A DNA stretch of 64,000 nt from Halogranum rubrum (GTDB lineage: Archaea; Halobacteriota; Halobacteria; Halobacteriales; Haloferacaceae). Each line of letters opens with the position of its first letter. The first letter of the stretch is position 1. The notes below the pieces were generated by a model. It had not been told where the DNA came from, did no database searches, and saw nothing but the letters and a program-made list of their open reading frames with translations. Location: NCBI RefSeq assembly GCF_900114455.1, contig NZ_FOTC01000002.1, positions 281,012 to 345,011 on the forward strand. The letters run 5' to 3'. Below, one piece after another: positions 6,335 through 7,367 of the stretch. The position numbers were made by a program, and so were the translations under genes.

Positions 6335-6419
6335 GACTTTATCGCCGAGAAGTTACAACTAACTAATACAATATTTGCCGAAAGGGATGACTGTCGGGAA
6401 CCCCCGGCTGAAAGTACTA

Positions 6420-7367
6420 ATGTTCAGTAAATACGGACGTAACATGCTCGTCGTCTTCGTCGTCGCTACTGTCGCTCTGAGTGGTCTCGCCGGGGTCGCC
6501 GCGGCGCACGACCACCACGACAAGAAGAACGACGTCGACCAACAGCAACGAAGTAACGCAGAATCGTGGGCGAATCAGTTCGGCTGGAACAACGACGCCG
6601 ACCAGAAACAACGAACTCATCAGTTCCAGTGGACCAGACAGAAGGGCAACCACAACGACCAGACACAGGACCAAGAGGCCAGCGAGTCCGCCGAACTGGT
6701 CGCCTCCGGTGACGACAACGACCAGTCGCAGGACCAGCGTGTGGAGCAGAACGCCGCACAGAGACAGGGCGGCACGCACAACGACCAATCGCAGGACCAG
6801 GACGCCGATGCCGAGGCGAGCCAGGCTGCGTACGGCGACGACAACGACCAGAGCCAAGAACAGCATATCGACCAGTCCGCCGAGCAGAGCCAGGACGGCA
6901 CGCACAACGACCAGAGCCAAGAGCAGGACGCTGACGCCGAGGCTCACCAGTACGTCCGAGGCGACGGCGGCGACCAGAGCCAAGAACAGCGTATCGACCA
7001 GTCCGCCGAGCAGAGCCAGGACGGGAAGAACGACGACCAGAGTCAAAAGCAAGACGCAGGAGCGACCCAGGTTCAGGTTAACTTCGAGGGCATCGGCGGT
7101 ATGGGGATGCAGGGCGCCTCCGTCACCCACGACGCGAGTAGTGGCTCCTCGTCCGACGGCGCTCACACCGCTGCATCGATGATGTGCACGGACAACCAGT
7201 GTGCCGGGAGCCAGGCCTCCATGTCCGGGTCGAGCGACGACGCGAGTTTCGCCGCCGACTCCGAGACGCAATCCGGTGCGGGTTCCAGCGAGATGGAACA
7301 GCACGTCAGCGTCAGCAGTGACGACGGTCACCTCAACACCACGGTAGAACAGAGCCAGGACCGCTAA
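6420..7367 (+). CDS. Secreted protein with nine 21-residue curlin-like repeats
   Basis: From ATG 6420 the product is 315 residues. Residues 8-29 form a Sec-type signal (NMLVVFVVATVALSGLAGVA). Residues 34-222 (6519-7085) divide exactly into nine 21-residue repeats with core G-x-x-N-D-Q-S-Q-x-Q. Odd and even units alternate, giving a 42-residue super-repeat. The spacing Q-x-G-x2-N-x5-Q matches the bacterial curlin repeat (Q-x-G-x2-N-x-A-x3-Q), with Gln in place of the Ala. Residues 223-315 are Ser/Gly/Met-rich with one CTDNQC pair. By analogy it could form a stacked beta-fibre outside the cell. Alternative starts are 6387 (ATG) and 6375 (TTG). No curli-type secretion gene lies nearby. Confidence 0.75.
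   Translation: MFSKYGRNMLVVFVVATVALSGLAGVAAAHDHHDKKNDVDQQQRSNAESWANQFGWNNDADQKQRTHQFQWTRQKGNHNDQTQDQEASESAELVASGDDNDQSQDQRVEQNAAQRQGGTHNDQSQDQDADAEASQAAYGDDNDQSQEQHIDQSAEQSQDGTHNDQSQEQDADAEAHQYVRGDGGDQSQEQRIDQSAEQSQDGKNDDQSQKQDAGATQVQVNFEGIGGMGMQGASVTHDASSGSSSDGAHTAASMMCTDNQCAGSQASMSGSSDDASFAADSETQSGAGSSEMEQHVSVSSDDGHLNTTVEQSQDR

Follow-up and report, generated by a model that had tools for sequence, protein, structure and literature searches.

An open reading frame in a 64,000-nucleotide stretch of the Halogranum rubrum genome (hereafter the window; contig NZ_FOTC01000002.1, positions 281,012 to 345,011) encodes a protein of exact 21-residue repeats, which an earlier note, made from the sequence alone, proposed as a curlin-like protein and candidate haloarchaeal functional amyloid. 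The question raised by this locus was whether the repeats are real, whether they are related to the curlin repeats of CsgA and CsgB, and what such a protein may do in a salt-loving archaeon. The observation itself was confirmed on reanalysis; the interpretation placed on it was partly supported, as set out below.

The repeat protein and its family

The reading frame encodes 315 aa. Residues 34–222 were cut into exactly nine 21-residue units without any insertion or deletion. Identity between residues one period apart was 0.39 at a lag of 21 and 0.53 at a lag of 42, against a maximum of 0.22 over all lags in 2000 composition-preserving shuffles. Odd and even units alternate in their last ten residues, as the note had stated, and this is the source of a 42-residue super-period that recurs in the paralogs and in relatives from other genera; the note's reading of this alternation as a two-layer ladder is not shown. 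The spacing Q-x-G-x2-N-x5-Q is present in the well-formed units, but units 3, 5 and 7 lack the Q two residues before the next G, and the first two units (NDVDQ, NDADQ) are closer to textbook curlin than the later ones (NDQSQ). The repeats are followed by a 93-residue tail that the note did not describe. The gene is under purifying selection against its ortholog in Halogranum amylolyticum (locus L058, 70% identity), with dN/dS of 0.37 overall, 0.31 in the repeats and 0.40 in the tail, and against the paralog A678 (0.31).

At least six genes of the family are present in the own genome. Besides the window gene these are A678 and, upstream of it on the same strand, B637 (both in locus L032), and the genes of loci L033 (587 aa), L034 (221 aa) and L035 (190 aa). 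L033 stops right after the last repeat unit, where A678 and the window protein continue with the tail domain. Searches for related loci with two alignments found nothing in viral or genome contigs, probably because low-complexity filtering hides these repeats. A degenerate DNA pattern was used instead and found relatives in H. amylolyticum (L058, L061, L063, L069, L072), Halobellus inordinatus (L059), Haloferax profundi (L071) and Halomarina halobia (L060, L068, L073). Its non-archaeal hits (L062, L064–L067, L070) were rejected as chance matches, being single and without a 21-residue repeat array. Of 391 Halobacteria genomes, at least 16 have a match to a family profile that includes the window protein (profile A5), a lower bound since only the best candidates were scored; the family is patchy.

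Two long members recur side by side on one strand in Halogranum, Halomarina, Haloferax and Halobellus. These Gln-rich repeat proteins are about 560–820 aa and lie 13–64 bp apart in Haloferax and Halobellus. By inspection, one of each pair (B-type) has a hydrophobic, membrane-spanning N-terminus and long acidic or Thr/Pro-rich stretches, making it a candidate surface anchor or nucleator. Outside the family's own gene pairs, no non-family neighbor among those examined was seen to recur across genera except a PAS/GAF-BAT-HTH_10 regulator located several kb away in two genera. Very long Gln/Glu/Asp-rich haloarchaeal proteins (L082, L085, L088; about 630 to over 1000 aa) with G-x-x-N units of about 23–24 residues were seen in two other family groups (f17, f7), and represent a sister repeat type closer to bacterial curlin length.

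Upstream regions of the Halogranum members (window, L058, L034, L035, L061, L069, L072) share a TATA-like element, a TAACTAA box and then a stem-loop roughly 9–14 nt before the start codon, with more than 25 consecutive leader bases identical between the two species. The stem is changed but still paired in L061. This suggests a common regulon and possibly a co-regulating RNA element, although the evidence is comparative and rests on few sequences.

Table 1. Positions of features in the window and of related loci, each in the numbering of its own sequence.
Sequence	Positions	Strand	Feature	Basis
Window	6338..6342	+	TATA-like element (TTTAT), about 20 nt upstream of the TAACTAA box	By inspection only; kept in L058; similar TTTAAT/TTTATT in paralog upstreams
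Window	6360..6366	+	TAACTAA box	Shared by upstreams of family genes in Halogranum; related box GARTAACRAATA in Halomarina
Window	6393..6408	+	Leader stem-loop GTCGGG-AACC-CCCGGC, ending 11 nt before the start codon	Stem kept in six Halogranum leaders, with a U-G to U-A change in two and a weakened sixth pair (five pairs) in L069; a different, longer stem in L034; no Rfam match
Window	6338–6420		Region of the shared 5' leader	Comparison of Halogranum family genes
L058	60–160		Region of the shared 5' leader	Comparison of Halogranum family genes
Window	6420..7367	+	Curlin-like repeat protein gene, 315 aa	Open reading frame; purifying selection
Window	6420..6506	+	Sec-type signal peptide (residues 1–29, ends AAA|HD)	Sequence inspection; conserved with paralogs L034/L035
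Window	6519..7085	+	Nine 21-residue units, residues 34–222	Periodicity and unit alignment
Window	7086..7364	+	Non-repeat Ser/Gly/Asp-rich C-terminal tail with a Cys pair (MCTDNQC), residues 223–315	Shared with A678 and L058, and by eye with Halomarina proteins of 341 and 380 aa; modelled without structure (pLDDT 31–38)
L032	6767–11176	-	Pair of long Gln-rich repeat proteins	Recurrent pair
L036	8616–14478	-	Pair of long Gln-rich repeat proteins	Recurrent pair
L038	9245–13751	+	Pair of long Gln-rich repeat proteins	Recurrent pair
L039	7275–11928	-	Pair of long Gln-rich repeat proteins	Recurrent pair
L063	1–3499	-	Pair of long Gln-rich repeat proteins	Recurrent pair
L071	1633–6097	+	Pair of long Gln-rich repeat proteins	Recurrent pair
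L033	6145–7908	-	Long paralog in the own genome	Compared with L032 6767–8803
L032	6767–8803	-	Long paralog in the own genome	Compared with L033 6145–7908
L040	7885–8508	+	PF07012 curlin protein	PF07012 match, E 1e-36
L055	8052–8789	-	PF07012 curlin protein	PF07012 match
L056	7841–8521	-	PF07012 curlin protein	PF07012 match
L057	7876–8499	+	PF07012 curlin protein	PF07012 match

Sequence resemblance to curlin

Over 256 family units the consensus is G0-x-x-N3-x-Q5-x-Q7-x-Q9-x-[SNA]11-x-Q13-x-Q15-x-[QA]17-x-Q19-x (in its shorter form, G-x2-N-x-Q-x-Q-x-Q-x3-Q-x-Q-x-Q-x-Q-x). Charged residues avoid the odd positions 3–19: in the window units they occupy 2 of 81 odd positions against 44 of 81 even positions (Fisher p 2e-14), and in small relatives 3 of 666 against 376 of 666. 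This is a two-faced beta pattern with Asn/Gln/Ala on one face and Asp/Glu/Lys/Arg on the other, and the acidic load that the note had matched to high salt is on one face only. A test for a charge ladder (opposite charges on consecutive units) was weak, being significant only at positions 2 and 20 (p about 0.01–0.02, uncorrected) and not overall, and was not used. In curlin terms (N-$-P1-$-P2-$-Q followed by X-G-X-X, in a repeat of 23 +/- 5 residues; PMC10192328), positions 3–9 are motif b, 20 and 0–2 the G arc, 13–19 motif a and 10–12 a short second arc. The repeat length and the Q-x-G-x2-N-x5-Q spacing fit this definition, and relatives keep the 21-residue spacing. The inward positions between N and Q do not, as they are hydrophobic, Ser or Thr in curlin whereas positions 5 and 7 are Gln in 81% and 89% of the 256 units, with Ala or Val at position 5 only in the first two units of the window protein and in small relatives. 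The last unit (QSxSQSSSQTQV or a close form) is conserved in many members, like a terminal cap.

A curlin profile search had been named in the note as a check. No Pfam family, including the curlin model PF07012, was matched by the window protein up to E 10, and none was matched by nine Q-rich relatives, while in the same scan PF07012 hit L040, a protein of another haloarchaeal genus, with E 1e-36 over 8 stretches. NCBIfam hits (YSIRK lipase, AuxB) far below cut-off were rejected as compositional, as was a PDB sequence match to an engineered repeat protein. Among 391 Halobacteria genomes PF07012 hit proteins of four (L040, L055, L056, L057), all of one genus, with no CsgG in those genomes; in a phylum-wide sample it had 0 of 393 matches. 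These true PF07012 proteins have 19-residue units with textbook N-x-A-x-V-x-Q.

In order to determine whether the resemblance goes beyond composition, an HMM was made from those four proteins alone. It scored the window protein at 23.0 bits (E 2.2e-6 for Z=1000), L034 at 60.7, L072 at 45.1, E. coli CsgB at 41.2 and CsgA at 16.6, whereas 20 unit-scrambled copies of each of five family proteins scored at most -1.6. Alignment of window+L058 against the same set by hhalign scored 26.6, while 100 random and 100 parity-preserving unit permutations reached at most 7.8 and 10.1, respectively (0 of 100 in each). A wider alignment was weaker, at 13.4 against at most 9.2. In the reverse direction, profile A5 brought up the four curlin genomes at E about 1e-7. 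Direct comparison with E. coli CsgA or CsgB gave nothing. The curlin resemblance is therefore position-specific, and common descent through haloarchaeal intermediates is likely but unproven.

Convergence, in which Gln/Asn/Asp-rich repeats in high salt came upon curlin spacing independently, with a similar fold or function but no common descent, is considered unlikely but must be weighed here, and would not exclude the mechanism proposed below. Low-complexity repeats converge easily, PF07012 does not hit, a direct match to bacterial CsgA/B is absent, and unit length differs (21 residues against 19 in haloarchaeal curlins and about 23 in bacteria). Against it, the link to haloarchaeal curlins survives unit scrambling, including parity-preserving scrambling, and the relatives grade from NDADVDQ-like (NDADQ, NDVDQ) to NDQSQ units, even within the window protein.

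The note's statement that no csgG-like gene is nearby holds for the whole genome: CsgG (PF03783) was absent from the own genome and from seven relatives and present in an E. coli control, as expected without an outer membrane to cross. Given the missing PF07012 match, the Gln/Ala replacement of the hydrophobic core and the absence of CsgG, membership in curli is not claimed.

Predicted structure and proposed role

Structure was predicted with AlphaFold2. The window protein (17 sequences) was modelled with nine strands of 16–18 residues, one of about 17 residues per unit, broken only at G-x-x-N, at pLDDT of about 50–60, and its structural matches are antiparallel beta-barrels and sheets. The small relative L072 (6 sequences) was modelled with two strands per 21-residue unit, of 6 and 9 residues (a beta-solenoid), at pLDDT 55–65 and pTM 0.48. 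Its VIA-align hits are mostly beta-helices and include the E. coli CsgA fibril 8enq, third by Z (11.1, but rmsd 9.0). Neither model had a Foldseek match at E<0.001. Beta structure is thus predicted, but both models are of low confidence and they disagree on topology.

A secreted beta-repeat protein of another topology, in which each unit is one long strand and the units form an antiparallel meander (42 residues = one hairpin), would be a surface or matrix protein and not a curlin-type amyloid. It draws on the window protein model, the 42-residue super-period and an alternation that runs unbroken from N3 to Q19. It is considered unlikely; against it are the low pLDDT, the two strands per unit in the small relative, the avoidance of Gln at position 11, where Ser/Asn/Ala dominate and which suggests a second turn, and the position-specific similarity to PF07012 proteins. 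A disordered, acidic, glutamine-rich surface polymer (hydration or charge brush) without fixed fold is very unlikely. Composition (40 Asp, 17 Glu, 16 Lys+Arg in 315 aa), low pLDDT and the lack of a library hit are consistent with it, but the strict period-2 face pattern, the indel-free 21-residue register and the last unit conserved across genera are not expected of a disordered chain, and both models are beta throughout the repeats.

The reading preferred, with moderate confidence only, is a secreted, glutamine-cored, curlin-like matrix or fibre protein. The analysis itself establishes the secretion signal (by inspection), the nine 21-residue units, the strict two-face pattern, a family across several haloarchaeal genera and a position-specific similarity to haloarchaeal proteins with true Pfam curlin repeats. 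Everything beyond this, including fold, polymerisation, amyloid formation, export and role, is inferred from sequence and low-confidence models, without fibre, dye-binding or expression data and with no known assembly factor. In this view, each unit would form a strand-arc-strand and the units would stack in register, with the hydrophobic core of curli replaced by ladders of glutamine amides while Asp/Glu face the brine. Open edge strands would let molecules stack end to end into extracellular fibres of the biofilm or cell-surface matrix. The long paralogs of the two-gene unit would be major and surface-held subunits, and the window protein, with its extra tail, a capping or accessory subunit. 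Export would be by Sec alone, because there is no outer membrane to cross, and the shared leader suggests that the genes are co-regulated. A further step, that this is a new class of archaeal functional amyloid, with curli-type fibres whose core of glutamine-amide ladders is suited to saturated salt and which are encoded by a set of co-regulated paralogs with paired major and surface-held subunits, is possible but tentative.

Haloferax volcanii biofilms stain with Congo red and thioflavin T, but the protein behind the staining was not established (PMC4180959). The present family gives a first concrete, deletable set of candidate genes in haloarchaea for the amyloid-like material seen in archaeal biofilms. 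It would also extend the curlin repeat, described mainly in bacteria, to archaea, and would test whether an amyloid core can run on stacked glutamines in saturated salt, a natural parallel to polyglutamine and prion-like polar zippers.

Comparison with known systems

The note knew of no established archaeal curli system, which requires qualification in view of the four PF07012-positive haloarchaeal proteins and of Dueholm 2012 (PMC3521004). No paper on Gln-rich repeat proteins of haloarchaea, and no description of this Gln-cored family, was found among open-licence papers.

With bacterial curlin CsgA/CsgB (PF07012; consensus in Sleutel 2023, PMC10192328) the window protein shares the repeat spacing, inward Asn and Gln, alternation of inward and outward residues, a repeat length within the curlin range, a secretion signal, and multiple paralogs and paired genes. 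It differs in having Gln instead of A/I/V/L/F/S/T at most inward positions, 21 residues with a 3-residue second arc, the 42-residue super-period, no CsgG, an archaeal host and no PF07012 match. With the PF07012-positive haloarchaeal proteins, which belong to the same order, it shares a Sec-like signal, G-x2-N-D-A/Q, inward and outward faces, tandem units to the C-terminus and the profile match to the window family; those proteins have 19-residue units with canonical N-x-A-x-V-x-Q in both motifs, are not Gln-cored, and were seen as a single gene per genome. Dueholm 2012 noted a single archaeal protein with regularly spaced curli-like repeats, treated there as a non-curli hit, and described no Gln-cored family. 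Archaeal sheaths are known amyloids, and the Methanospirillum hungatei sheath protein (PMC10593813) is an archaeal, amyloid-like extracellular beta-arch protein, which forms the rings of a sheath.
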